This document shows positions 28,482-58,085 of a DNA stretch of 64,000 nucleotides, one piece after another. Each line of letters starts with the position of its first letter. Position 1 is the first letter of the stretch. Both the position numbers and the translations under genes were made by a program. The DNA comes from Chloroflexota bacterium (GTDB lineage: Bacteria > Chloroflexota > Anaerolineae > Anaerolineales > Villigracilaceae), in contig JAPLGS010000098.1 of NCBI GenBank assembly GCA_026390015.1, forward strand, positions 1-64,000, given 5' to 3'. A model generated the notes under the pieces. It saw only the letters and a program-made list of their open reading frames with translations. It did no database searches and was not told the origin of the DNA.

Positions 28482-29387
28482 TTATGGGACAAGCATTTGA
28501 ACAGCAGCTGGGAAAATCTTGTATTCCAGATCAGTCACCCAGCTATCAAAGATCTCACCGTCTGTATGAGCGGGGGAAGGTTTATCGAGATGGATGCTCA
28601 GGCGCGTGCAATTGAACTCATTGATCCCGTCCATTTCAACCATGTTTCCTTTGCCGGGTTTCATGGCGCTGGGTAAGACCTGAAAAAGCCCCATGCGCGT
28701 ACTGCGATAGCCGTGCACAAAAGTAAGTTTCCCGTCGAATGGGTCGGCGTGCGGGGCCATGAAAAAGACTCCGCCCGTTCGAGCCCCATTGCCCACAGAA
28801 ACCAGGCTAAGCGGCCCCTCATACGAACCGCCATCCCAATCCAATCTGGCGTTCCAACTCGGCCCATCCATGATCCCCTGTACCGCCGCGACGAGGTAGC
28901 GCGGGATTCCGGAGAGCCATGCTATTTTCTCCTGTTTTGTAGAGACATACGGCTCCAGCCCGGCCGCAGAGTTGTTCAGGAAGTAGCGCTCATTGCACTT
29001 GCCCAGATCCATGCCGCGCATTTTTCCTTTTGCAATCGTTTGCACAGCGGCGGCAAGGTCAAGGGGAATTCCGACGTTGACGCACAGATCATTCGCCGTG
29101 CCCAACGGAATGACGCCCAGTGTAATTTTGAAAGGAGATGTTTCATCCCAGCCTCGCGCCGCGCCATTCAGGATTTCCCCAATGGAACCGTCGCCGCCGG
29201 CAATGATCAGTGTGGTAAAACCTTGTTGAACAGCTTCAGCAGCCAGTTCCACGAGATGATCGGCGTGTTCTGAAATGGAAAGATCAAAATCAACACCTGC
29301 GGCGCACAAAGCGTTTTCCGCTTCAGGCCAGCGCTTCTTTGAATTCCAACGATTTGAATAAGGGTTAAGCAGGATTTTTGTTTTCAT
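28482..29387 (-). CDS. Diacylglycerol/lipid kinase family protein
   Basis: A 301-residue soluble lipid kinase of the DagK/YegS type. ILLNPYSNRWNSKKRW is the first strand, TLIIAGGDGSIGEILNGAAR the ATP-binding GGDGT-like motif, GVIPLGTANDLCVNVGIPLD the substrate loop, and HTDGEIF near the end the GE/DGE motif. These enzymes phosphorylate diacylglycerol, ceramide or phosphatidylglycerol-like lipids. Its start lies inside the end of the methyltransferase gene (23-base overlap), suggesting translational coupling. Confidence 0.88.
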   Translation of the reverse strand: MKTKILLNPYSNRWNSKKRWPEAENALCAAGVDFDLSISEHADHLVELAAEAVQQGFTTLIIAGGDGSIGEILNGAARGWDETSPFKITLGVIPLGTANDLCVNVGIPLDLAAAVQTIAKGKMRGMDLGKCNERYFLNNSAAGLEPYVSTKQEKIAWLSGIPRYLVAAVQGIMDGPSWNARLDWDGGSYEGPLSLVSVGNGARTGGVFFMAPHADPFDGKLTFVHGYRSTRMGLFQVLPSAMKPGKGNMVEMDGINEFNCTRLSIHLDKPSPAHTDGEIFDSWVTDLEYKIFPAAVQMLVP

Positions 29388-30141
29388 CTTCCTCCGCGAT
29401 ATTATTGATTTTACCTGAAATCCATTTTGTGATCAGCATCTTCACACGCACCCGTACGCGCGCATCGGCGTTTGCCATTGTCCACGCCGATTTCACCGCG
29501 CTGAAAACACTTTCATCCAATTTCTCGAAGCCTTCCCATTCCTCATCCATGAAATCCTTCATCTCAGAGGGCGTATCCCAATAATAGAAGTAGGAAAATT
29601 CCCCTTCCTTTTCTTTGAAAAACCAGCCTTTGGATTCGACTTCCCGCATGGCATGGAACGCCGCTTGGTCATCTGCCAGCGCAATGGGCACATCGGTCAA
29701 CCTGCCTGCAACCTGATAGCCAGTTGACGCATTCACTTCCACCGGCCAATTCTCTTCGACCGGTCGGATGTCTATCAAGACTCCGTTCGGCTTGAGCGTT
29801 CTTCGAATTTCATCCAGAGCATGCACCATGCTCTCATGTTCCAGTCATCACAATGACCAGGCCAGAATGGCGATATCAAAGCTCTCGTTTGCAAATGGAA
29901 TGTCTCGCGCGCTCGCTTCTGCAAAGTGGACGTTCTTTTGCATATCATGTGGAGCGTCTGCACGCGCGATGCGCAAGGCATCATGGTCAGAATCAAATCC
30001 AACGGTCAGCGCTGATGCGGCGGCGTATTTCCATGTCAGACGTCCTTCACCACATCCAATTTCAAGAATGCGCTGTCCTGCGAAGTCTGCAAATTTATGC
30101 AGGTACTTGCGCTCGGATCCTTCAGGGTCTTTTAGCGTCAT
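29365..30141 (-). CDS. Class I methyltransferase interrupted by two in-frame TGA codons
   Basis: The frame from ATG 30141 to the stop at 29365 spans 258 codons. It reads as one methyltransferase except for tandem TGA TGA at 29850-29845. Before the stops lie ILEIGCGEGRLTWKYAAA (motif I), VGFDSDHDALRIARADA and FDIAILAWSL. After them come LEHESMVHALDEIRRTLKPN and GVLIDIRPVE, the expected continuation. No shift of frame is needed. An AGAGCATG-GTG-CATGCTCT hairpin follows the TGAs at a SECIS-like distance. Options are selenocysteine (or other UGA) recoding, two nonsense mutations, or a sequence error. The start has a 4-base ATGA overlap with the DUF1801 gene, and the end overlaps the lipid kinase. 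Confidence 0.72.
29816..29834 (-). promoter_or_regulatory. SECIS-like hairpin downstream of tandem TGA
   Basis: On the coding strand AGAGCATG, GTG, CATGCTCT form a perfect 8-bp stem with a 3-base loop. It starts 10 bases after the second TGA. The loop-proximal GGT lies 17 bases after that TGA. Bacterial SECIS elements are stem-loops directly 3' of UGA with a G/GU in the apical loop at about this distance. It might still be chance within coding sequence. Confidence 0.4.
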
Positions 30142-30548
30142 AACTTCTTCGCCGCTTTGACCGACTGCTTGATGAGTTCTTTCAAAACTTTGACATCCAC
30201 ATCTCTCAATTTGTTGATGTACAAACAACCTACTCCAGTTTTGTGCCTGCCAAGTTTTTCCAATAATTCAACATGCGGGTTATAACTTCCCGTCACATAT
30301 AAAGTCAGATTTTGTTTGCGCGGAGAGAAACCTGTGATGAACCAATCGCCTTCACGTCCACTTTCATAAACATAATGCGTATGACCAAAGCCGACGATGC
30401 TTGATCCCCACATCCTCGGCTCCTGTTTTGTGGCTTGCTTCATTAACTTTAATATCTCAAAACTATCCGCGCGTTTTTCTTCATCTTCGATGGTATTAAG
30501 AAAATCAGTGACGCTATCGTTGTTGACTTTTGTTTTTAATTCAGCCAT
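30138..30548 (-). CDS. DUF1801 domain protein
   Basis: A 136-residue protein with the DUF1801 features SVTDFLNTIEDEEKRADSFE, MWGSSIVGFGHTHYVYESGR, WFITGFSPRKQNLTLYVTG and KTGVGCLYINKLRDVDVKVL. The fold is related to YdhG/YyaD-like small proteins; function is unknown. It leads a three-gene minus-strand unit (DUF1801, methyltransferase, lipid kinase) linked by overlapping ends. Confidence 0.88.
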   Translation of the reverse strand: MAELKTKVNNDSVTDFLNTIEDEEKRADSFEILKLMKQATKQEPRMWGSSIVGFGHTHYVYESGREGDWFITGFSPRKQNLTLYVTGSYNPHVELLEKLGRHKTGVGCLYINKLRDVDVKVLKELIKQSVKAAKKL

Positions 30549-35651: not shown

Positions 35652-38600
35652 ATGATCTTCGCCCTCATGTTTGGAGGCTTTGGTCAGGCGCAAGCGCAGG
35701 GACAAACTGCGTTGCCCAAGCAGAACGCCCTCGCGGCTCCTGCTGCGGTTACCTTCACCGAGACGGATGTGACTAAGGTACCGCATTACTTCGGACCCTT
35801 CCCGAACTATGCCAACAGCCCGCAGACAGTTCCTAATGCTATTGTTGCGATCGCTCCCCCCGTTGCAGGTACGACGGCGACGGCCAATGCAATAGTCAAC
35901 CCTGTGGATGGTTCCATTTCAGGGTTCACCATTACAAATCCTGGCGGCGGCTATACCGTTGCTCCACTCGTCTCGATCACGGGATTAGGCACGCTGGCAG
36001 CAGCGACCGCCGTGGTTGACCCCACCGGTATCGTTAACTCGATTACTCCGGATGTGGGTGGAGCTGGATCTGGATACACTGCTCCCTCTGTCGCCATCAC
36101 GGGCGGCGGCGCGACTACAGACGCGACTGCCACCGCTACCGGTGGCGTTGATGCTCTCATTAACATTACTAACGGAGGCACTGGTTTCACCCAGCAGCCT
36201 ATGGTTACTTTCTCCCTTCCCAATGATCCGGCAGGTATACAAGCTACCGGGTCCGCGACGATGAACCTACTTGGCGTAGTTGACTCGATCACGGTTGTGG
36301 AGCCGGGCTCCGGATATACATCCGCCCCAGATGTGACGATTACCGATGGAATCGGGCCGATTTTCGGAAACGGAACAGGCGCGACCGCCACGGCAACCTT
36401 GCACATCACCGGATTCACCATGAACACCTTTGGCACCGGATATACATCTGCCCCACTCGTGACAATCAGCGATGATATTTTGCTCGGTGGCATTGGTTTA
36501 GGCGCTACTGCCACACCCACGATGACCTATGGATCCATCACGGGCTTTACCATTACTAACCCTGGCTCCGGCTATCTCACTCCGGGCATTAAGAAGTTCG
36601 TTGATACGCTGCCAGGTTTGGGAGCCGCAGGGGCGAACAACCTCGGCAATTATATTTCGATCGCCGTCGCGGATACCACTACGTATCCGGGCACCGATTA
36701 CTACGAGATCGCGGTTGTCCAGTACCGACAGCGGATGTCCAGCAGCCTGCCAGGGCAGGGGACGCTTCTGCGCGGCTACGTTCAGCTTTCGACAGCTGTG
36801 GTTCCGGGCGCGCATGTTCAACTGACCAACGCAAATCTTGATCCGAATATTGCCCCTACTGATATCGTCGGATACTTTGGCGTAGACAGTCCACGCTATC
36901 TTGGAGCGACGATCGTCGCCCAAAGGGATAGGCCCGTTCGAATTCTGTTCCGTGACCTGCTTCCAACAGGCGTTGCCGGGGACTTGTTCCTGCCGGTCGA
37001 CACCACAGTTATGGGCTCAGGTCCGGGACCCCTTGCTAGTATGGCGGCTCCTCTGAATAATGGTACCGTCGTGGATGAAATTCGCAACCCGATATGTAAT
37101 GCGGGATTTAATGCGGCCGCGCCGAACGAGTGCTATACACAAAACCGCGCCACCCTGCATCTTCACGGTGGAATTACCCCGTGGATCAGCGATGGCACCC
37201 CGCACCAATGGATCACACCTGCTGGCGAGAATACCTCCTATCCACAGGGCGTCAGCGTAAGCAACGTTCCCGATATGCCCGATCCAGGCCCCGGGGCGCA
37301 GACCTTCTTCTACACCAATCAGCAAAGCGCGCGTTTGATGTTCTATCACGACCACTCCTGGGGCATTACCCGCCTGAACGTTTACGCGGGTGAGGCTGCC
37401 GGCTACGTGCTGACCGACTCAACCGAGGCGGCGCTGATGGCTGGCCCACTCAAGAGTGTTGGCCTCGGCATTCCACTCATCATCCAGGATAAAACCTTCG
37501 TGCCGAGCCCGACAGAGCTTGCCAGGCAAGACCCGACCTGGAACGCTGCTCTTTGGGGTGGCGAGGGAAATCTGTGGTTACCGCACGTCATGATGCCCGC
37601 GCAGAACCCAGGTTCCAGCACAGGCCAAAGTAATTTTGGCCGCTGGATGTATGGCCCATGGTTCTGGCCGCCCGCTTCACCAAAATATGGCCCGATCGCC
37701 AACCCGTACTTCGACCCGTTCTGTGACCCCAATCTAATCCTTGCGGATGGGAGCAACCAGTTCTGTGAGCCTCCATTGATCCCTGGCGTCCCGAATCTGT
37801 CAGTAGGCATGGAAGCGTTCAACGATACCCCCATCGTCAACGGTGTGGCTTATCCAACAGTTACACTTGACCCGAAGCCTTACCGCTTCCGCATTCTCAA
37901 TGCAGCCAATGATCGCTTCATGAACCTGCAATGGTATGTGGCTGATTCCGCCACAGCTAGCACTGGTCTAAACGCACTGGGCCAGCCCATCGGCGGCACC
38001 GAGGTCGCTCTGAACGCCGCTGAAGTAGCTGCCGCTCAGACTAACCCGGATATCTCCCCGACTCCAAACACACTCGCCAGCCCGGTAGGACCCAATTGGG
38101 TTCAGATCGGCACCGAGGGCGGCTTCCTGCCGACCCCGACGGTTGTCAGTGGCAGTCAGATAACCACTTTTATCACCAATCCGACCCGCTTCGATGTGGG
38201 CAACGTTGATAAGCACTCACTCCTGCTGGGAACAGCTGAGAGAGGTGACGTTATTGTTGACTTCTCGAAGTACTCAGGCAAGACCCTGATCCTCTATAAC
38301 GATGCCCCGGCAGCTTTCCCGGCACGCGTCGCCAACTATGACTACTATACAGGTGGCCCAGACTTGACCGGCTCAGGCGGAGCTCCAACCACCCTGGCTG
38401 GCTACGGCCCCAATACCCGCACCATTATGCAGGTCAAGATCGCTGCGAAACCTGCCGCTGCCGCCTTCAATATGGTTCCTCTCAATGCGGCTTTCGCGCA
38501 TCATAATGATGCTGCCGGGAAACCCGCTGGCGTGTTTGAATCCTCACAGGACCCGATCATCGTCGGTCAGGCCGCCTACAACACAGCTTACGGCACCGCG

Positions 38601-41600
38601 TTCCGCAGTGCGGCCCCCAATGATGGGTTTGCCAGAATTAATGACATGTCCCTCACGTTCAACACCCTGTTGACCGGTGGTACACCCACTGCAACACCTT
38701 TGAACACATTAACCATCCCGTTCGAGAACAAGGGCATGCACGACGAGATGAACTCGGCTGTCTTTGATGAGTTTGGCAGAATGAGCGCCAACCTCGGCCT
38801 GGAAGCGCCGGGCGCCACGCCTCTCACACAGAATATCATCCTATACCCATACATCAACCCGACATCTGAGTTTATGACGGGGATCGAGCTGCCTTACGGC
38901 GCCTCGGGCACCCTAAAGGCGGCCAAGATCTCTTCGGCTGCTGATGGGACCGAGATCTGGAAGATCACGCACAACGGCGTGGATACGCACCCGATCCACT
39001 TCCATCTGTTCAACGTGCAGATCCTCAACCGCATCACGTGGGACAACATCATCATCAAACCCGAAGCAAGTGAACTCGGTTGGAAGGACACCATCAGGGT
39101 AAGCCCGCTCGAAGATACCATCATCGCTCTGCGTCCGATCGTGCCCAAGAGTCCCTTCGGTTTGTGGGACAGTATCCGGCCCCTGAACCCGGCCATGCCG
39201 ATCGGTGACAAATCGGGCTTCAACAACACAGACTTCAAAGGCAATCCTCTGACCGGCGTGAATATCATCTCTAACCAGATGACCAACTTCGGCTGGGAGT
39301 ATGTTTGGCACTGCCACATCCTCGGCCACGAAGAGATGGATATGATGCGCCCGATCAAGGTTGACGTATCGCGTGCCATGCCGGCAGCCCCTGTATTAAG
39401 TTCTACAGGAAGCTCAGGAGGTAAGGTCAATCTGTCCTGGACAGATGGCACTCCAATCGACTATAACGCTCTCAATCCCGCTTCCTGGGGTGATCCCTCT
39501 GCTGAAATTGGCTACCGGGTTGAACGGTCAGACCATGGCGCAAATGTTTTTGCTACAACATGGAAAGCCCTTGCCAATCAAACCAGCCTCCCCGATGCGA
39601 CAACGAATCAATTCAACTCGTATGATTATCGTGTGGTTGTTTATAACGTTGCCGGAGAAGCTACATCCAATGTCATAACAGTGGATCCGGCTCCCCTGGG
39701 CGCACCAACCTTTTTGGTAGCAACAGCGTTCAGTTCGAACCAGATCAATTTGACCTGGGTCAACAATGCCTCTACCCAAATTGGTTTTACAGTTGAACGC
39801 GCGCCGGTTACAGCTGGAATACCAGGTGCCTTCGTAACCATTGGTACAGTTCCTTCATTAGATCCTTTAGGTGCCACTATCGCTTTTAGCGATGGCACCC
39901 CACCGCTTACACCCAAGACAACCTATGCTTACCAGGTGAACGCTTACAACGCTATAGTTGGGCCGTCGTCCAACGTCGCCACAGCCACTACATTTGATTT
40001 GGCTCCGACCGCTCCGACCGCTCTGACTGCCTCAGTATTCAGCACGACCCAGGTGAATTTGGCCTGGACTGATACTTCCAGCAATGAGACCAACTTTGTT
40101 CTCGAGCGCGCTGTCAACGGTGCAGCTTTCGCGGTACTCGCCACGCTGCCTGCTAATACGAAAACCTACAATGATACAGCGGTCGCCGCTGGCAATGACT
40201 ACGCTTACCAGGTGAAGGCTATCAATTTAGGAGGCTCATCGCCTTATTCGAACACTGCCAGCGTCAGCATCATCGCCGCTCCGATAGCGCTGACCGCCAC
40301 CGCGGTTAGTGCAAGCCAGGTGAATCTAACCTGGTCTGATACATCCACCAATGAGACTGGCTTCAGCATCGAACGCTGCGCTGGCGCTAGCTGCACCACC
40401 TTCCTCCAGGTTGGAACTGTGGCCGCAAATGTCGCAAATTACAGTGACATGACGACCGCTCCTGTTACAACTTATGTTTATCAGGTGATCGCAACCAACT
40501 TACTTGGTGTCTCCAAGCCATCCAGTACTGCTACAGTTACCACGCTGGATGTGCCGCCCGCCGCTCCCACTGCTTTGAGTGCGCTCCTGGTGAATGGCCC
40601 GCAGGTTGCCCTGACTTGGACCGATAATGCCACTAACGAAACCGGCATGGTGGTCGAAAGTTCTCTCAATGGCGCAGCTTTCACAGTAATCGCTACGCTC
40701 CCTGCCAACACGGTCAGCTACACAGACCTTACAGTGATCGGTGGCAATACCTACGTTTACCAGGTGAAGGCTACCAATTCAGGAGGCTCATCGGCTTATT
40801 CAAACACAGCCACGATGATTGTCCCCATTCCTCCGGCAGCTCCAACAGTGCTGACAGCAACATTGCTCGGCAACCCAACGAGCGTCCAGTTGAGGTGGAC
40901 AGATAACGCCACTACCGAAACCGGCTTTGTGGTTGAGCGTTGCGCAGGCGTTGGCTGTACCACGTTCGCCTTGATTACGACTGTCGCAGCCAGAAATGGC
41001 ACAGGCAATGTGACCTTCACAGACGGCACCGTATTGTTAGGTACCAGCTACTCTTACCGGGTATTTGCTATAAACGCAGGCGGCTCGTCACTTCCCTCGA
41101 ACGTAGCTACCCTGACCATTGGCAGCCTTCCCGCTGCTCCAACCGCCCTGACTTACACTTTGGGTACCAACCCGCTTCGAGTTCGCCTGACCTGGTTTGA
41201 TAACGCCATAGACGAGACCAATTTCGTTCTGGAACGTTCCATCAATGGTGGAGCTTTCACAACACTCGCCACCGTTGGAGCCCTCCAGGGCACAGGCACC
41301 AGGAACTATACAGACGGTACGGTTTTGGCTGGCAACACCTATGCTTACAGAGTGAAGGCAGTCAATTTGGTAGGCTCATCGGCTTACTCGAACGTATTAT
41401 CTGTCAGTCTCTTGCTCCCAGCTGCTCCCTCAAGCGCAAACGCCTCCGCAATTCTGGTTGGCACTAGCGACCGGGTGACCTTGACATGGGTTGACAATGC
41501 CAATAACGAAACCAGCTTCACGATCCAGCGTGCCACCAACGCGACATTCACAGCCGGGTTGGGAAACACCTCTGTAGCTGCAAACGCCACCACTTTTGGA

Positions 41601-41708
41601 AGTACCGTTAATCGTGGTCGAACGTACTACTACCGCATTCAGACGGTCAATGCAATCGGTGTATCTGCCTGGGTGAATTTCACACCCTTCCCGATCGTCA
41701 CTCCGTAA
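35652..41708 (+). CDS. Giant secreted multicopper oxidase with FN3 repeats
   Basis: In the given sequence the frame starts at ATG 35652; a +1 correction in the A6 tract adds the natural start at 35633. Residues 1-17 form the rest of a signal peptide. Residues 75-320 hold at least six GSGYTSAPxVTI-type beta repeats. The oxidase core follows with all four copper motifs: HLHG (503-506), HDH (566-568), HPIHFH (1113-1118) and HCHILGHEEM (1220-1229, Cys as T1 ligand with Met axial). From about 1240 to 2018 there are eight fibronectin type III domains, such as NLTWSDTSTNETGFSIERCA. It probably oxidises metal ions or phenolics at the cell surface; Mn(II) oxidation is one candidate. The FN3 tail may bind sugars or the wall. 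Confidence 0.9.
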   Translation: MIFALMFGGFGQAQAQGQTALPKQNALAAPAAVTFTETDVTKVPHYFGPFPNYANSPQTVPNAIVAIAPPVAGTTATANAIVNPVDGSISGFTITNPGGGYTVAPLVSITGLGTLAAATAVVDPTGIVNSITPDVGGAGSGYTAPSVAITGGGATTDATATATGGVDALINITNGGTGFTQQPMVTFSLPNDPAGIQATGSATMNLLGVVDSITVVEPGSGYTSAPDVTITDGIGPIFGNGTGATATATLHITGFTMNTFGTGYTSAPLVTISDDILLGGIGLGATATPTMTYGSITGFTITNPGSGYLTPGIKKFVDTLPGLGAAGANNLGNYISIAVADTTTYPGTDYYEIAVVQYRQRMSSSLPGQGTLLRGYVQLSTAVVPGAHVQLTNANLDPNIAPTDIVGYFGVDSPRYLGATIVAQRDRPVRILFRDLLPTGVAGDLFLPVDTTVMGSGPGPLASMAAPLNNGTVVDEIRNPICNAGFNAAAPNECYTQNRATLHLHGGITPWISDGTPHQWITPAGENTSYPQGVSVSNVPDMPDPGPGAQTFFYTNQQSARLMFYHDHSWGITRLNVYAGEAAGYVLTDSTEAALMAGPLKSVGLGIPLIIQDKTFVPSPTELARQDPTWNAALWGGEGNLWLPHVMMPAQNPGSSTGQSNFGRWMYGPWFWPPASPKYGPIANPYFDPFCDPNLILADGSNQFCEPPLIPGVPNLSVGMEAFNDTPIVNGVAYPTVTLDPKPYRFRILNAANDRFMNLQWYVADSATASTGLNALGQPIGGTEVALNAAEVAAAQTNPDISPTPNTLASPVGPNWVQIGTEGGFLPTPTVVSGSQITTFITNPTRFDVGNVDKHSLLLGTAERGDVIVDFSKYSGKTLILYNDAPAAFPARVANYDYYTGGPDLTGSGGAPTTLAGYGPNTRTIMQVKIAAKPAAAAFNMVPLNAAFAHHNDAAGKPAGVFESSQDPIIVGQAAYNTAYGTAFRSAAPNDGFARINDMSLTFNTLLTGGTPTATPLNTLTIPFENKGMHDEMNSAVFDEFGRMSANLGLEAPGATPLTQNIILYPYINPTSEFMTGIELPYGASGTLKAAKISSAADGTEIWKITHNGVDTHPIHFHLFNVQILNRITWDNIIIKPEASELGWKDTIRVSPLEDTIIALRPIVPKSPFGLWDSIRPLNPAMPIGDKSGFNNTDFKGNPLTGVNIISNQMTNFGWEYVWHCHILGHEEMDMMRPIKVDVSRAMPAAPVLSSTGSSGGKVNLSWTDGTPIDYNALNPASWGDPSAEIGYRVERSDHGANVFATTWKALANQTSLPDATTNQFNSYDYRVVVYNVAGEATSNVITVDPAPLGAPTFLVATAFSSNQINLTWVNNASTQIGFTVERAPVTAGIPGAFVTIGTVPSLDPLGATIAFSDGTPPLTPKTTYAYQVNAYNAIVGPSSNVATATTFDLAPTAPTALTASVFSTTQVNLAWTDTSSNETNFVLERAVNGAAFAVLATLPANTKTYNDTAVAAGNDYAYQVKAINLGGSSPYSNTASVSIIAAPIALTATAVSASQVNLTWSDTSTNETGFSIERCAGASCTTFLQVGTVAANVANYSDMTTAPVTTYVYQVIATNLLGVSKPSSTATVTTLDVPPAAPTALSALLVNGPQVALTWTDNATNETGMVVESSLNGAAFTVIATLPANTVSYTDLTVIGGNTYVYQVKATNSGGSSAYSNTATMIVPIPPAAPTVLTATLLGNPTSVQLRWTDNATTETGFVVERCAGVGCTTFALITTVAARNGTGNVTFTDGTVLLGTSYSYRVFAINAGGSSLPSNVATLTIGSLPAAPTALTYTLGTNPLRVRLTWFDNAIDETNFVLERSINGGAFTTLATVGALQGTGTRNYTDGTVLAGNTYAYRVKAVNLVGSSAYSNVLSVSLLLPAAPSSANASAILVGTSDRVTLTWVDNANNETSFTIQRATNATFTAGLGNTSVAANATTFGSTVNRGRTYYYRIQTVNAIGVSAWVNFTPFPIVTP

Positions 41709-45873: not shown

Positions 45874-48800
45874 ATGTTTAAAACAATCAGGTCTTTATTT
45901 TTATTAATTACTGTGGTTGCATCTTTGTTCATGTACCCGCTGCAGTCGGTTTATGCTTTAGCCATTCCCGCAGAGATCAATAAACAATTCAACCCGATTT
46001 TGATCGATGCGGGTGGAACATCGGTGTTACGGGTTACGATATTTAACCCGAACACATTCCCATTAACAAACGCATCCTGGACTGATAACCTGATCGGTGT
46101 ACAGACGGGTCTGAAGATTGCAAACCCCAATGGCTTAAACGTTACCTGTGTTGGTGGTTCCGTTACAGCCGTGCCTGATACAACCACTTTATCTTTAAGC
46201 GGAGGGATTGTTCCCGCTCAGGTTGGCGCTGTGCCTGGTGAATGCTTTGTTGAAATTAATGTCACATCTACTACTGCCGGCAATCTGATCAATACAATTC
46301 CTGCGAATAATTTAAAGGCATCAGGCAATGATGGGGGAACGCCCGTAGCAATTTCAAACACTACGCCTGCAAGCGCAACGTTGACTGTCGTTGCTGTTGT
46401 ACCACCTACGTTGAGCAAAGGTTTTGCGCCAAACACAATATCGATGGGAAATGTCAGTACGCTAGCCATTACGATCAATAATAATGATACAAATACAAAT
46501 CTGACCGGGACTTCATTCACTGATACCCTGCCTGCCAATGTCATCCTTGCCACCCCGGCAGTTGGAGTAACTCCACTTACCAATTGCGGTGCTTCAGCCT
46601 CATTGGCTGTGACCGCCGGGGGGAATTCAATAGCTTTGACAAACGCCACTGTTACCCCAGGCCTAAACTGTGTGGTTACCGTAAATGTTACCTCGGCTAT
46701 ACAGGGTGTTTATATCAACACCATCCCGGCTGGACCCGGCAACCCCGGCTCGATCGTGACCCAGCAAGGGGTCACGAATGGCAGCCCAGCCAGTGCTACC
46801 TTGAATGTTCAGCCGATTAATATTGCCAAACAATTTAATCCCATATCTTTTCAAGCTGGTGGAACGAGTACTTTGACGATCACGCTTCAAAACCCAACAG
46901 CTTCCGCTTACACTGGCGTGAATTTAACGGATACCCTGCCCATTCTTCCCAATTCCAACCTGACTTATGTTGCCGCATCTTCAGCGACAACCTGTGCCCC
47001 TGGAACGGCATCCAATACCAGCACAACTGTTACTTTGACTGGCGGTACCATCCCAGCTAATTCTTCGTGTACTATCACTGTCAATGTCACCACAACAGTT
47101 AATGCACCTGTCGCAACTTATAGAAATACCATCCCCGCAGGTGCTGTCTTCATCGGAAGTAACCCAACGTTGACTAATGGAATTCCAGCAATTGCGGATG
47201 TTAGTGTGTATGCAATCGGGACCGGCATGGTTGGAAGTGTTAAATCATTTTCAATCGATCCAATTGACGCAGGTCAAAACACACGCTTGAGAATTGATCT
47301 CTTTGCGCCGGCTGATACGAACCTGACGAATTTTTCCATGACTGATAACCTGCCGGTGGGCGTCACTATAACCAATGTGAACTCACTAGGTGTTGCAACA
47401 CCACCAGCAATAAGCGGCTGTGGAGTAGCGCCACCTCGTGTGCTAACTGCCAACACTGGAACTGCCATCATTTCCCTTTCAGGTGGAACCATCCTTGCAG
47501 GAGCTCGCTGTCGGATCGATGTTTGGGTAACCAGCAGCACACCCGGGACTGTTACCAATACCATTTCCCCCGCTGACATATCCAATACGGAAAATCGCCA
47601 CCCTTCCGGTAATCTCACTGACACGTTGACTGTAAATAGTGCGGAAAACCTCTCGGTCACTAAAGACTTCAACCCGCCCACAGTTAACCCGGGTGGTTTA
47701 TCCATACTGACAATCACACTTCGAAATACGTACCCGTCTCCGCTAGTCAACACATCGCTTACTGATAACCTGCCGGGTACGGTTGCAAATGGAGTTGTAG
47801 TTGCGCCTGTTCCAAACGCCAGCACCACATGTACCGGTGGGATCATTACTGCAGTCCCAGGATCGCAAGCAATTACCATGACAGGAGGGACTGTTCCTGC
47901 ACAGGCTGGAGGCGTGCCGGGAATATGTACGATTACTGTCACTGTTCAGGGTAATGACAGTAATGCTACTCCGAGTAATCGCGATAATACAATTCCAACT
48001 GCCAATGTTTCAGGCACAGTTCAAAGTACAGGCGCAGCGATTGCTCCAATAGCCGATGCGGTAGCTCGTCTTAGAACTGAGATTCTCACTATCGGCGTGG
48101 TTAAGGGATTTAATCCTGTGCTTGTATTCGGTGGGGCATTTTCGACCATGAGTGTTCAGCTGGTAAATCCCAATACCATAGCGTTAACAGGTATTGCTTT
48201 TACAGACGATATGACTTTGCTCGGTACGGGCATGGAATTGGCCAACCCTGTTACTTTTAATACCGGTACTTGTGGCGGCGTTCTTACTGGAAATCCTGGT
48301 GCTTCTTCTTTTTCATTTACTGGTGGTACTTTACCTGCAAACTCAAACTGTACCCTGACCTTGCGCGTTGTCATGGCTGTAAATGGGAATCTCACCAATC
48401 GAATTCCAGCCGGCGCTGTTACTACTTTTAATGGGATTAGTAGCACTCAACCTACCGAAGCATCCTTGACAAATCTCCCCGGAGCGAGCGTCTCTAAGAG
48501 TTTTAATCCCAACACCATCCTGACTGGCGGGTTCTCTACATTGACGATCACCATTAAGAATACCAGTAACATTCCGCTTGTCGGCATGGCGTTGACAGAT
48601 AATTTACCCGGAACCCTTCCCATCGGACTGGAAGTTGCGGGAGGTTCAGCTCCTGCGCCTGTCAATAATTGTGGCGGCGCTTTTTCAGCGCCAATTGGTT
48701 CTCAAACAATTGCATTAACTGGTGGAACCCTGGCAGGAAGTGCCAGTTGTACGATCACTGTTAGTGTTACAAGTAGTATGCCTGGCACCTATGTGAATCT

Positions 48801-51459
48801 CATTCCAGCCGGGGGCTTAACTGCAACAGCGGGTGGTTCCCCAGTTAGCAATACTACCCCCACTTCAGACACTTTGGTGGTGAATCCTGGTGGATACAGC
48901 CTTGGAAACCGGGTGTGGTTTGACACGGATAACAGCGGCACGATCAATGGCGCAGAAGTTGGGATTAGCAATGTGCGCGTCGAGTTGTATCAGGATAATG
49001 GAAATGGTATATACGATGCTGGAGATACCTTCCTATCCTTTGCGACAACAGATGCGAGCGGCTATTATCGCTTTGATAATCTGGCTGCCGGGGATTACGT
49101 GGTGCTCATCCCTGCAGATAACTTCCGCAACGTGGGCGCGGGTGACAAAATCGCCGGCGACCCGTTGTCGGGGTATTGGAGCAGCGGCACTAACATTGCA
49201 AATAATGGCACAGTCAGTGACAGCATAGGGCCAGATGCAGATGCGACACCGGCAGACAGCGATGATAACGGTGTAACAAGTTTTACAAGCAATGCGGTCA
49301 ACTTCGTTGCGGCGCAGGCGGTCACCCTTGGCCCTGGTGCATCTGAGCCAGTAGGTGAGACAGATAAATCCGGCACTTCCGGCGAAGCGCCGGACGCGTT
49401 CAGCAATCTGACAGTGGATTTTGGATTTTATCGTCAGGAACTTGGAAATCTGGTCTTTATTGATGCGAATAATAATGGAAAATTTGACGCCGGAGATAGC
49501 TTGCTTTCCGGAGCGACAGTGCGGTTGTTTGCCGGCAATGGAACGACCGAGATCGAGGTCGGCCCTGACGGTATCCTGGGCACATCGGACGATGCAACTG
49601 GCGGTGTTACAACCGGCGCTGGAGGCACCTATCTATTTAAAGGCTTGCCGCAGGGCGATTACATTGTAAAAGTTACTCCTCCAGTTGGATATACCAGCGC
49701 AGTGGACACAGCCAACATCGGCGACACAACAACCCCGAATAATAATATTGATAATAATGATAATGGCATCGGCACAGCCACGGGTTTAGTAATAAGTAAT
49801 TTGGTAACCCTAACCCCGGGCAGCCTCGGCGCGGCTTCAAATAACGTGGTCAGTAATTCAAGCGGAACAACCACGAATCCGACAATGGACTTTGGATTTG
49901 TTGCGTCAAGCGGCCTATCCAAAATAATTGTGGATACCAATCAATCCTTTACCAGCGGGAATGATGTGGCGATTGGAGAGATCGTAACATATCAGGTTTC
50001 GATTAATCTTCCTGTTGGAGTGTCTCTTGAAAATGTAACCATTACAGACCTCATGGATAAGGGTCTCGCGTATGTGAATTGTTTATCGGTCAATGTGGGC
50101 GGCGTAGATTTGACATCTACGATTTGCCCATCGGCAGTCGTCTCAGCCATTACCGACCCTGCAGATTTAGATTCCAACCCCGCCAACCCGGGCAGACAGG
50201 TGATTTTCAACCTGGGGAATATTGCCGCACTGAATGAAGTCCCACAGATCGTCATTCAATATCGGGCTGTTGTGCTTGATGTGATCGAGAATCAACGCGG
50301 TATTAATTTGAATAATAACGTCGTCTGGGCATGGACTGGCGGCTCATTCACAACAAGTGCCCCTGATGTAACCATTGTTGAGCCCAATCTCACGATAGCA
50401 AAAACCGCCAACGTAAACTTTATAGCGAACGGCTCGGCGGCTACTTTTACTCTTGTAATTTCCCATACACCATCAAGCAATGCTGACGCTTTCGATATTG
50501 TAATATCGGATGTTTTACCACCAGGCCTGGATTATGTTGCAAATTCAATTAATTGTGACTCTGGCGAACAAGACCCCGATGTTGGCTCTTGTGTTTATGA
50601 TGCCGGAACCCGTACAATTAAGGCTCAATGGAGTGCATTCACACAATTACCAGCCAATGCCCGGGGTATCATTCGATTTGACGTAGTTGGAAATGAATCC
50701 ATTCCTGCAAATGGCAGTCTAACCAATATAGCAAATGTTGAATGGACAAGCCTCCCTGGTAATCAAATTACTACTCAGTCGCTCTTCAATAAGTTTGCAA
50801 CAGAGCGGTTTTACGATCCGGCCGACCGGATCAATTTTTATAATGCCAGCGCATCACTTTCGCTTACACCGCTTGGCGGTGGAGGTAATGGCGGAGGCAG
50901 AGGCATTAAGATAAATAATGTTTCTGTTTTTCGTGCTGGTGGATTTCTTATTCCGGTAACAGGTTTTGCGCCTAATGCTGTGACAACCTTGGATTCAATG
51001 CTTCGCCCAGCTTACAACTCAACGAGTCTGACCATAGAGATTCCTGTGATCAAAATTAAAACTTCGATCGTTGGCGTTCAACTAAAGAATCGAAATTGGG
51101 ATGTTTCCTGGCTTCAAGATCAAGTAGGGTGGTTAAATGGAACTGCATACCCATCATGGGAGGGTAATAGTGTTCTCACGGCTCATTCTGTTAATTCAGA
51201 TGGAAAACCCGGAATATTTTCAAACCTGAGAAGCTTGAATGCAGGCGAATATATCTTTGTGTATAACCTGGGCTATCGCTACACCTATAAAGTTATTTCA
51301 AATAAATACGTGCAGCCTGATGACATTACTGTGCTAAAGCATGAAGAAGAAGCGCATCTCACTCTAATTACATGCGATGCCTTTGATGAAAAGACGGGCA
51401 CTTATCTTCGCCGAGTTGTGGTGCGGGCCATACTCGTGGATGTTCAGGAAATAAAGTAA
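45874..51459 (+). CDS. Giant DUF11/SdrD-B surface protein with sorting-like motif and C-terminal sortase domain
   Basis: A signal peptide (LFLLITVVASLFMYPLQSVY, cleavage after about residue 30) leads into about eight DUF11-like repeats (each with a DNLPG/TDTLP motif and ILTGGFSTLTITIKN-like strands). Two SdrD B-type domains follow (GNRVWFDTDNSGTINGAEVG; NLVFIDANNNGKFDAGDSLL), then two longer DUF11 domains. A glycine linker (GGGGNGGGRG) and FLIPVTGF at residues 1691-1698 precede a sortase domain with LTAHSV (His1771), LTLITCDAF (Cys1834) and an Arg in RRVVVRA (near 1847). The protein thus carries a candidate LPxTG-type signal and its own transpeptidase. No membrane span follows. ATG 45874 follows GGAG. 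Confidence 0.9.
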   Translation: MFKTIRSLFLLITVVASLFMYPLQSVYALAIPAEINKQFNPILIDAGGTSVLRVTIFNPNTFPLTNASWTDNLIGVQTGLKIANPNGLNVTCVGGSVTAVPDTTTLSLSGGIVPAQVGAVPGECFVEINVTSTTAGNLINTIPANNLKASGNDGGTPVAISNTTPASATLTVVAVVPPTLSKGFAPNTISMGNVSTLAITINNNDTNTNLTGTSFTDTLPANVILATPAVGVTPLTNCGASASLAVTAGGNSIALTNATVTPGLNCVVTVNVTSAIQGVYINTIPAGPGNPGSIVTQQGVTNGSPASATLNVQPINIAKQFNPISFQAGGTSTLTITLQNPTASAYTGVNLTDTLPILPNSNLTYVAASSATTCAPGTASNTSTTVTLTGGTIPANSSCTITVNVTTTVNAPVATYRNTIPAGAVFIGSNPTLTNGIPAIADVSVYAIGTGMVGSVKSFSIDPIDAGQNTRLRIDLFAPADTNLTNFSMTDNLPVGVTITNVNSLGVATPPAISGCGVAPPRVLTANTGTAIISLSGGTILAGARCRIDVWVTSSTPGTVTNTISPADISNTENRHPSGNLTDTLTVNSAENLSVTKDFNPPTVNPGGLSILTITLRNTYPSPLVNTSLTDNLPGTVANGVVVAPVPNASTTCTGGIITAVPGSQAITMTGGTVPAQAGGVPGICTITVTVQGNDSNATPSNRDNTIPTANVSGTVQSTGAAIAPIADAVARLRTEILTIGVVKGFNPVLVFGGAFSTMSVQLVNPNTIALTGIAFTDDMTLLGTGMELANPVTFNTGTCGGVLTGNPGASSFSFTGGTLPANSNCTLTLRVVMAVNGNLTNRIPAGAVTTFNGISSTQPTEASLTNLPGASVSKSFNPNTILTGGFSTLTITIKNTSNIPLVGMALTDNLPGTLPIGLEVAGGSAPAPVNNCGGAFSAPIGSQTIALTGGTLAGSASCTITVSVTSSMPGTYVNLIPAGGLTATAGGSPVSNTTPTSDTLVVNPGGYSLGNRVWFDTDNSGTINGAEVGISNVRVELYQDNGNGIYDAGDTFLSFATTDASGYYRFDNLAAGDYVVLIPADNFRNVGAGDKIAGDPLSGYWSSGTNIANNGTVSDSIGPDADATPADSDDNGVTSFTSNAVNFVAAQAVTLGPGASEPVGETDKSGTSGEAPDAFSNLTVDFGFYRQELGNLVFIDANNNGKFDAGDSLLSGATVRLFAGNGTTEIEVGPDGILGTSDDATGGVTTGAGGTYLFKGLPQGDYIVKVTPPVGYTSAVDTANIGDTTTPNNNIDNNDNGIGTATGLVISNLVTLTPGSLGAASNNVVSNSSGTTTNPTMDFGFVASSGLSKIIVDTNQSFTSGNDVAIGEIVTYQVSINLPVGVSLENVTITDLMDKGLAYVNCLSVNVGGVDLTSTICPSAVVSAITDPADLDSNPANPGRQVIFNLGNIAALNEVPQIVIQYRAVVLDVIENQRGINLNNNVVWAWTGGSFTTSAPDVTIVEPNLTIAKTANVNFIANGSAATFTLVISHTPSSNADAFDIVISDVLPPGLDYVANSINCDSGEQDPDVGSCVYDAGTRTIKAQWSAFTQLPANARGIIRFDVVGNESIPANGSLTNIANVEWTSLPGNQITTQSLFNKFATERFYDPADRINFYNASASLSLTPLGGGGNGGGRGIKINNVSVFRAGGFLIPVTGFAPNAVTTLDSMLRPAYNSTSLTIEIPVIKIKTSIVGVQLKNRNWDVSWLQDQVGWLNGTAYPSWEGNSVLTAHSVNSDGKPGIFSNLRSLNAGEYIFVYNLGYRYTYKVISNKYVQPDDITVLKHEEEAHLTLITCDAFDEKTGTYLRRVVVRAILVDVQEIK

Positions 51460-57287: not shown

Positions 57288-58085
57288 TTATGCAGGTTTG
57301 TAGGCAGTGATCTTGGCGCTAAAAACTGCTTTATAGACATCGTCGCGTGAAATGGAACTTAAGTCAAGTTCGTCGCCCATATCAGCAAGAGCGGCATCCA
57401 CGGTTTCCTTGTCGAAGAAAACTGGTTTGACGGATATATCCGTGAAGCCGACGGATTGCATCATGCCGATATAATCATCAGCTTCGACTGCGCCTGCTAC
57501 ACATCCAGCCCACGCACTTAAACTTATTTTGATTGGCTCAGGAAGCGGGCCGTCGGTGACAATATCAGAGACCGCTAGCTTGCCGCCTGGTGCGAGCACA
57601 CGAAAAGCTTCTGTGAATACTTTGGCTTTATCGGGCGAGAGGTTGATGACGCAGTTTGAGATGATGACATCCACAGTGTTGCTATCAACGGGAAGCTCTT
57701 CAAGATAACCCTGCCTGAATTCGACATTGGTTGCGTTGACTCGCTTTGCGTTGACTTGCGCACGTTCGATCATTTCGGGGGTCATATCCACGCCGATGAC
57801 GCGGCCTGTCTCTCCAACTTTTTGGGCGGCGAGAAGGCAATCTAGACCTGCGCCTGAGCCGAGGTCAAGTACGGTTTGACCCGGTTTCAGAGAGGCGAGA
57901 GTGATCGGGTCGCCGCAGCCGTAGCTGGTGCTGGCAATATCGGTGGGGACGGTGGTGAGAAGATCTATCGGGTAGAGATTGTTTTCGGGACTGCAGCAAT
58001 TGTCAGCGCAGCAGGAAGCGCTGCTCTTAATCCGCTCAGCGTAATGCTCGCGGACAGTCTCGTGGATGGGATTTGAAGTTGACAT
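57288..58085 (-). CDS. arsM: Arsenite S-adenosylmethyltransferase
   Basis: A 265-residue class I methyltransferase that methylates As(III). VLDLGSGAGLDCLLAAQKVG is motif I, RVIGVDMTPEMIERAQVN the SAM ribose site, and VDVIISNCVINLSPDK carries one of the arsenic-binding cysteines; a second is in SAWAGCVAGAVEADDYIG. The N-terminal SSASCCADNCCSPEN is cysteine-rich. Paired with an ArsR gene and shared operator sites at 58101 and 58504. Confidence 0.92.
   Translation of the reverse strand: MSTSNPIHETVREHYAERIKSSASCCADNCCSPENNLYPIDLLTTVPTDIASTSYGCGDPITLASLKPGQTVLDLGSGAGLDCLLAAQKVGETGRVIGVDMTPEMIERAQVNAKRVNATNVEFRQGYLEELPVDSNTVDVIISNCVINLSPDKAKVFTEAFRVLAPGGKLAVSDIVTDGPLPEPIKISLSAWAGCVAGAVEADDYIGMMQSVGFTDISVKPVFFDKETVDAALADMGDELDLSSISRDDVYKAVFSAKITAYKPA

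Follow-up and report, generated by a model that had tools for sequence, protein, structure and literature searches.

A gene for a class I SAM-dependent methyltransferase, found in a 64,000-nucleotide stretch of Chloroflexota DNA (the window), very probably encodes a selenoprotein with two adjacent selenocysteine (Sec) residues in the loop after strand beta-4, both specified through one shared SECIS hairpin. This assignment rests on sequence comparison and structure prediction. The gene is also likely to represent a phylum-wide family of Sec-Sec methyltransferases in which no all-Cys form was found among 81 loci and in which a single SECIS serves both codons.

The methyltransferase gene

The coordinates of the gene, of the two TGA codons, of the hairpin and of the flanking genes are listed in Table 1. 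The methyltransferase frame (30141..29365, minus strand) contains exactly two internal stops, TGA TGA at 29850..29845, and no other lesion. With TGA read as Cys, the Pfam domain Methyltransf_25 matched across the stops and over its cut-off (residues 25-120, E 1.9e-19). The translation and this match bear out the initial annotation of the window, in which the 258-codon methyltransferase frame was held to be intact on both sides of the TGA codons. Mechanical ORF finding splits the gene into 30228..29848 and 29829..29365, so that Chloroflexota genome annotations probably give it in truncated form or lack it.

Table 1. Features of the methyltransferase locus in the window
Feature	Coordinates	Strand	Remarks
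Class I SAM-dependent methyltransferase gene with two in-frame TGA	29365..30141	-	258 residues, stop TAA
First in-frame TGA, residue 98, proposed Sec	29848..29850	-	TGA in 79/81 loci, TGT (Cys) in 2/81
Second in-frame TGA, residue 99, proposed Sec	29845..29847	-	TGA in 64/81 loci, TGC (Cys) in 11, TGT (Cys) in 6
Bacterial SECIS-type hairpin	29816..29834	-	Folding, covariation, covariance model
Hairpin, 5' arm	29834..29827	-	
Hairpin, loop GTG	29826..29824	-	
Hairpin, 3' arm	29823..29816	-	
Upstream DUF1801 protein gene	30138..30548	-	TGA acts as the stop and overlaps the methyltransferase start (ATGA)
Downstream diacylglycerol/lipid kinase gene	28482..29387	-	Start lies inside the 3' end of the methyltransferase gene

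The codon pair in relatives

The GTDB genome collection was scanned with the window protein; 17 stretches matched and 4 were confirmed as relatives (97, 86, 54 and 52% identity), all titled Chloroflexi, Anaerolineae or Anaerolineales and all with TGA TGA at the same place (4/4). The range beyond Chloroflexota was probed by this one scan and by plasmids and viral contigs, and the family may well extend further. In plasmids, generic methyltransferase matches were found in 143 records, none of them covering 80% of the query, and the viral contigs gave no exact match to one element pattern.

Profiles in which the TGA sites were read as Cys, with a slight bias toward Sec/Cys members, were searched against overlapping samples of genomes, the phylum of which was deduced from named near relatives. 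Among 400 genomes of the phylum, 21 yielded 22 matches (E <= 1e-40), each containing one or two TGA; among 396 genomes of the class, 46 yielded 48 matches (E <= 1e-25), every one of which contained TGA, as did the matches from 3 of 47 genomes of another class. With an enlarged profile, TGA was present at this site in 52/52 matches from 400 phylum genomes (E <= 4.1e-35). The E values then showed a gap from 4.1e-35 to 7.8e-21, and 97 of the 98 weaker matches listed (7.8e-21 to 6.8e-14) were without a stop. The sole TGA-bearing match among these was half of a frameshift-split copy, which by eye reads SLUU; its other half is one of the stop-free 97. In this copy (L143, G027:C26) the frameshift lies upstream of the intact UU site, and may reflect either assembly error or decay.

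After merging of duplicates, 81 distinct loci (54 + 27; the window and 80 relatives) were available for comparison of the codon pair. TGA-TGA (UU) was present in 62, TGA-Cys (UC) in 17 and Cys-TGA (CU) in 2, with neither Cys-Cys nor any other pair at the two codons in the 81 loci. The alignment of homologues suggested in the initial annotation thus returned only Sec or Cys codons at both positions (81/81 loci), and the Cys-Cys homologues that had been expected there did not appear. Eight weaker matches from outside the family, inspected by eye, had neither Sec nor Cys-Cys at the loop; two of them (L146 and L149) have one Cys nearby. In 54 members down to 28% identity, both sites are among the seven invariant columns (Sec and Cys pooled).

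A quick maximum-likelihood tree was built with both codon positions masked. The fewest Sec/Cys changes on this tree were 14 (position 1, 2; position 2, 12), an exact count that is soft, 21 of the 78 inner branches being open; no fewer than 9 changes (UU versus the rest) follow from the well-supported branches by themselves. If UGA and Cys repeatedly replace each other at two adjacent codons, to the exclusion of all other residues, this marks both as Sec positions. Since no all-Cys (CC) member was found, this argument rests on the UC and CU members.

Selection was estimated for the 22 closest members as the median pairwise dN/dS (ungapped Nei-Gojobori), which was 0.18 before the pair (25 codons at most; 115/231 usable pairs) and 0.16 after it (140/231). 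As the value after the TGA codons is about that before them, the downstream half is constrained as protein.

The family occurs in two copies in G064 (L099), G387, G207, G087 and G369. The copies are two UC genes about 5 kb apart in G064, one UU and one CU in G387, and one UU and one UC in G087.

The hairpin downstream of the codons

The hairpin AGAGCATG-GTG-CATGCTCT (29834..29816, minus strand) begins ten bases past the second TGA. The distance from the TGA to the start of its apical loop is 18 nt for the second codon and 21 nt for the first, and the 43 nt counted from the first TGA fold with -11.6 kcal/mol (z = -2.6 against shuffles). The limits given for bacterial SECIS elements in the available text of PMC13188914 are a loop of 3-9 nt, an upper stem of 4-16 bp, a G among the first two nucleotides of the loop, a UGA-to-loop spacing of 16-37 nt and an energy of -7.5 kcal/mol or below. 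With its 3-nt loop, 8 bp and first-loop G, the window hairpin lies within these limits, as do both spacings and the energy. The SECIS-like geometry that the initial annotation had ascribed to an 8-bp stem ten bases past the second TGA is therefore upheld. The first loop G is invariant (81/81 loci). One of seven members that were folded, the CU member L039, has an A-C mismatch and an energy of -3.9 kcal/mol, outside the limit.

The TGATGA motif alone proves nothing because the hexamer is common (68 observed in the window versus 50 expected); the proof is carried by conservation. At 81 distinct loci, counting that of the window, an in-frame TGA, tandem or single, has a hairpin downstream of it in the same position. 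In the alignment of these loci (79 distinct rows), 93% of the cells of the eight-pair stem are paired and 7 of the 8 pairs show compensatory changes. In a shuffle control, which ignores relatedness of the loci, the 31 doubly changed stem cells compared with a mean of 7.0; the observed pairing, doubly changed pairs or cells, and covariation score were matched in 0/500 shuffles, and the observed count of further pair types was reached in 11/500. When the stem partner was slid by 1-3 columns, pairing fell to 21-58%. The outermost pair and the loop-closing pair are each formed in 58 of the 79 distinct rows. In L116 and L117 the letters of the stem are quite different and pairing is still full.

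Constraint at the RNA level is also supported by the codons used, which follow the pairing. The Ala codon of the 3' arm is GCC (58) or GCT (21) and never GCA or GCG, which make up 54% of the 2066 Ala codons elsewhere in the family genes. Its third base pairs with its partner in 80/81 loci (G-C 58, A-T 22, A-C 1). A single TTG Leu codon (L041) stands opposite an A, so that the pair is kept. The third bases of the Val codon in the loop and of the Leu codon at the stem end vary.

A covariance model was run against the 4.3-Mb genome. The site scored 62.3 bits and the next best candidate 20.7 bits, with 150 of 1576 first-look candidates scored.

Selenocysteine machinery and TGA usage

A search for the sel genes, also suggested initially, recovered selA, selB, selC and selD from the assembly, all over their cut-offs (selA 555.6 bits, selB 360.2, selD 356.1 and the tRNA-Sec of selC 64.4). 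By reading, the anticodon loop of the tRNA-Sec contains UCA. The selD gene of the window genome (L052, G000:C38) has an in-frame TGA in the context ACAG-U-ASKL. As this context fits the UxxK motif listed for SelD in the available text of PMC13188914, it provides a second, well-known UGA site in the same genome, the SelD of which is probably itself a selenoprotein.

In the class, selA (E <= 1e-60) was detected in 45/46 genomes bearing the methyltransferase gene versus 273/350 others (Fisher one-sided p 2.9e-4), a modest test of co-occurrence because 80% of the class has selA anyway. The exception, G690 (90% complete, 630 contigs), has the gene and no selA match at that threshold. TGA is not generally reassigned in the window, since it ends 8/36 hand-picked ORFs. 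General reassignment of TGA was ruled out by these ORFs and by the TGA stop of the DUF1801 gene just upstream.

By comparison of the loci and genomes it was established that the two codons are translated through, that Sec and Cys are exchanged at both, that an RNA hairpin follows them and that the machinery for Sec is present. All computational hallmarks of a bacterial selenoprotein that were tested were found except an all-Cys homologue, which is supportive and not required. Physical insertion of Sec at both sites is what we infer. Each UGA would be decoded by Sec-tRNA delivered by SelB bound to the one shared coding-region hairpin, whose loop would be at a workable distance (18 and 21 nt) from both codons. 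The UC and CU members would be natural single-codon versions of this arrangement, and from their existence it seems that the hairpin may work for either position. Decoding UGA twice in a row is expected to be inefficient, which counts against a tandem-Sec reading.

Within the family, one site next to a single SECIS has switched repeatedly between Sec-Sec and Sec-Cys. The family thus makes testable how one SelB-binding hairpin lets the ribosome read two consecutive UGAs and whether the spacings of 18 and 21 nt are equally efficient, with the UC and CU members as ready-made controls. The effect of a selenolate or diselenide pair on the chemistry of a methyltransferase can likewise be tested. If the Sec-Sec reading is true, this would be the first bacterial Sec-Sec family and a natural system for the decoding of tandem UGA by SelB; it might also be the first case of a SAM enzyme with a vicinal diselenol/diselenide.

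Fold and predicted role

The protein was modelled with AlphaFold2 from a 54-row alignment, with Cys standing for Sec (mean pLDDT 94.7, pTM 0.89). The best neighbours of the model in the PDB are SAM methyltransferases (TTHA0223, 2yr0; Z 18.1, 215 residues, 3.5 A), and comparison with the SAM-bound structure of TTHA0223 (2yqz) gave Z 17.8. SAM-binding motif I (GxGxG) is kept in the 54 members, with G28, G30 and G32 invariant and E26 and C29 conserved in at least 90%. The Rossmann-like fold and the GxGxG motif are those of the class I SAM-dependent methyltransferases.

The pair is found at model residues 97-98, between strand 87-93 and helix 101-114 (the loop after beta-4), in the local motif SL-U-U, followed by five residues and then usually MVHAL. 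In class I methyltransferases the loop after beta-4 borders the methyl group. The enzymatic role is likewise inferred: tentatively, a selenolate pair near the methyl group of SAM might bind or activate a soft substrate (a thiol, a selenol or a metal(loid)), possibly under the control of an Se-Se switch. A redox switch through an Se-Se bond would be an equal partner in this guess.

Alternative explanations

The initial annotation named double nonsense mutation and sequence error as alternatives. Two stops within a coding frame, in an assembly of 177 contigs for a 4.3-Mb genome, could be taken for either of these or for a decaying gene, but the probability of such an origin is now negligible. 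A read error is excluded because TGA TGA is found in separate records (97, 86, 54 and 52% identity), and the same codons recur in further assemblies whose identity ranges from 97% to about 28%. Double nonsense is excluded by the purifying selection downstream and by the fact that no member has a sense codon other than Cys at the pair; the window copy, moreover, has no other lesion. Sequence error and a pseudogene are thus refuted by codon conservation together with selection. Another possibility is that the tandem UGA acts as a conserved, selenium-sensitive point of termination, with the 97-residue N-terminal half as the main product and the full-length protein as a minor or conditional one. 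Release factor 2 competes with the decoding of UGA, and tandem stops can firm up termination; both count in favour of such a role. The tandem stop is not, however, the conserved thing, because a Cys codon stands at position 2 in 17 loci and at position 1 in 2. The C-terminal half has a dN/dS of about 0.16, and in the model the rest of the fold lies past the pair. Termination as the main outcome is accordingly held to be extremely unlikely.

The exchange with Cys codons at both sites would also fit the reading of the TGAs as Cys, or as another residue, by a suppressor tRNA, for example a tRNA-Cys of the selC* type with a UCA anticodon, and selC* tRNA-Cys with opal anticodons are described for some anaerobic bacteria in the available text of PMC7609411. 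Chloroflexota are not among the phyla named for selC* in that text, and a single match to the tRNA-Sec model was over the cut-off among the 10 matches listed. A complete Sec system is encoded in the genome, including a tRNA-Sec over its cut-off and a SelD with an in-frame TGA, and a plain suppressor tRNA would have no use for a covarying SECIS hairpin; this explanation is accordingly very unlikely. An alternative that accepts Sec at both UGAs is that the protein is a redox or metal-binding protein in which methylation has been lost. Most uncharacterized selenoproteins are likely redox proteins according to the available text of PMC13188914. Two Sec side by side would be apt for a diselenide switch or for binding a soft metal. 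Against this stand the retention of motif I in the 54 members and the match of the model to a SAM-bound methyltransferase (TTHA0223, 2yqz), and loss of methylation is considered unlikely, though worth keeping in view. The preferred reading is that of a SAM methyltransferase with Sec at both positions.

Relation to known families

The window protein and a second member (L003) were searched against NCBIfam release 20.0, and none of the best 25 models was over its cut-off. A scan of all 54 members returned families named for other proteins. The best-scoring model was CpaM, the corrinoid protein-associated methyltransferase (NF043040), which matched 52/54 members at E <= 1e-8; its scores of 70.2 bits (window protein) and 53.5 bits (L003) are below the cut-off of 180 bits, the match is confined to residues 16-123, and no link of CpaM to Sec was found here.

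Among named selenoproteins, MduS (NF045649; credited to Haft and Tolstoy 2025 in the available text of PMC13188914) resembles the window protein in having a methyltransferase domain and two Sec. The domain match is weak (36.8 bits for the window protein and 31.5 for L003, against a cut-off of 380), the MduS profile has 338 positions, and the same text gives MduS two Sec and the motif CxxU rather than Sec-Sec. The Methyltransferase/UXPK-star double selenoprotein (NF047649) and two ArsM fusions (NF041536 and NF041537) are likewise bacterial and combine a methyltransferase domain with at least two Sec. They are, however, named as fusions with other domains, their motifs are UxxG or UxxG/CxxU (PMC13188914, available text), and two members scored 24.8-34.6 bits against cut-offs of 460-575.

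With the arsenite methyltransferase ArsM (NF008823) the SAM-binding region is in common, and the window gene scores 21.9 bits versus a cut-off of 263. The window carries an ArsM gene of its own at 57288..58085 (minus strand), about 27 kb away, which is over the NF008823 cut-off (307.7 bits). In a profile alignment of 100 columns, the first Sec stands opposite the Cys of the SNCVINL loop of this ArsM, in a register made unsure by a 3-residue gap beside it. The alignment stops at residue 122, leaving the C-terminal half of the methyltransferase unmatched.

The initial annotation had regarded a double-Sec methyltransferase as new. This was sustained for the family. Table 1 of PMC13188914, with 119 families or subfamilies, gives as methyltransferase selenoproteins MduS, the UXPK-star double selenoprotein, ArsM and the two ArsM fusions; the available part of that source contains neither a Sec-Sec motif nor a family like this methyltransferase. 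The motifs in this 2026 table include CU, UxxU and UxxxxU, the motif column being empty for some two-Sec entries, and most prokaryotic selenoproteins carry one Sec according to the same portion of the source. Consecutive Sec as such has a precedent, the algal PDI_e with GUGUU, reported in 2020 and, in the accessible text of PMC7539508, described by its authors as the first selenoprotein with consecutive Sec. This was the sole published Sec-Sec claim found in the open-licence literature, in the portions of the sources available. PDI_e shares two consecutive Sec with the window protein, but it is eukaryotic and thioredoxin-like in fold, whereas the window protein is a bacterial methyltransferase with SLUU, and its hairpin lies within the coding region, directly behind the codons. 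A published case of tandem UGA in the L gene of Ebola virus is, from the accessible text, not comparable here. As far as these sources go, the selenoprotein family is new, and new through its tandem Sec-Sec.

Gene neighbourhood and other features of the window

Neighbouring genes were clustered over 41 loci, which gave no functional lead. Relatives of the DUF1801 gene are upstream of the family gene in 11/41 loci. DUF1801, amidase and UPRTase genes (named by domain search) and genes for a zinc dehydrogenase and a C69-like peptidase (named by reading of the sequences) recur in the family to which the window belongs and in two named close relatives of it; in other families the neighbours mostly differ. 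At one locus (L096, G332) three DUF1801-like ORFs stand upstream of the methyltransferase gene in the same direction, which suggests local duplication. The window also contains two very long ORFs on the plus strand, at 35652-41708 (2018 codons) and 45874-51459 (1861 codons).
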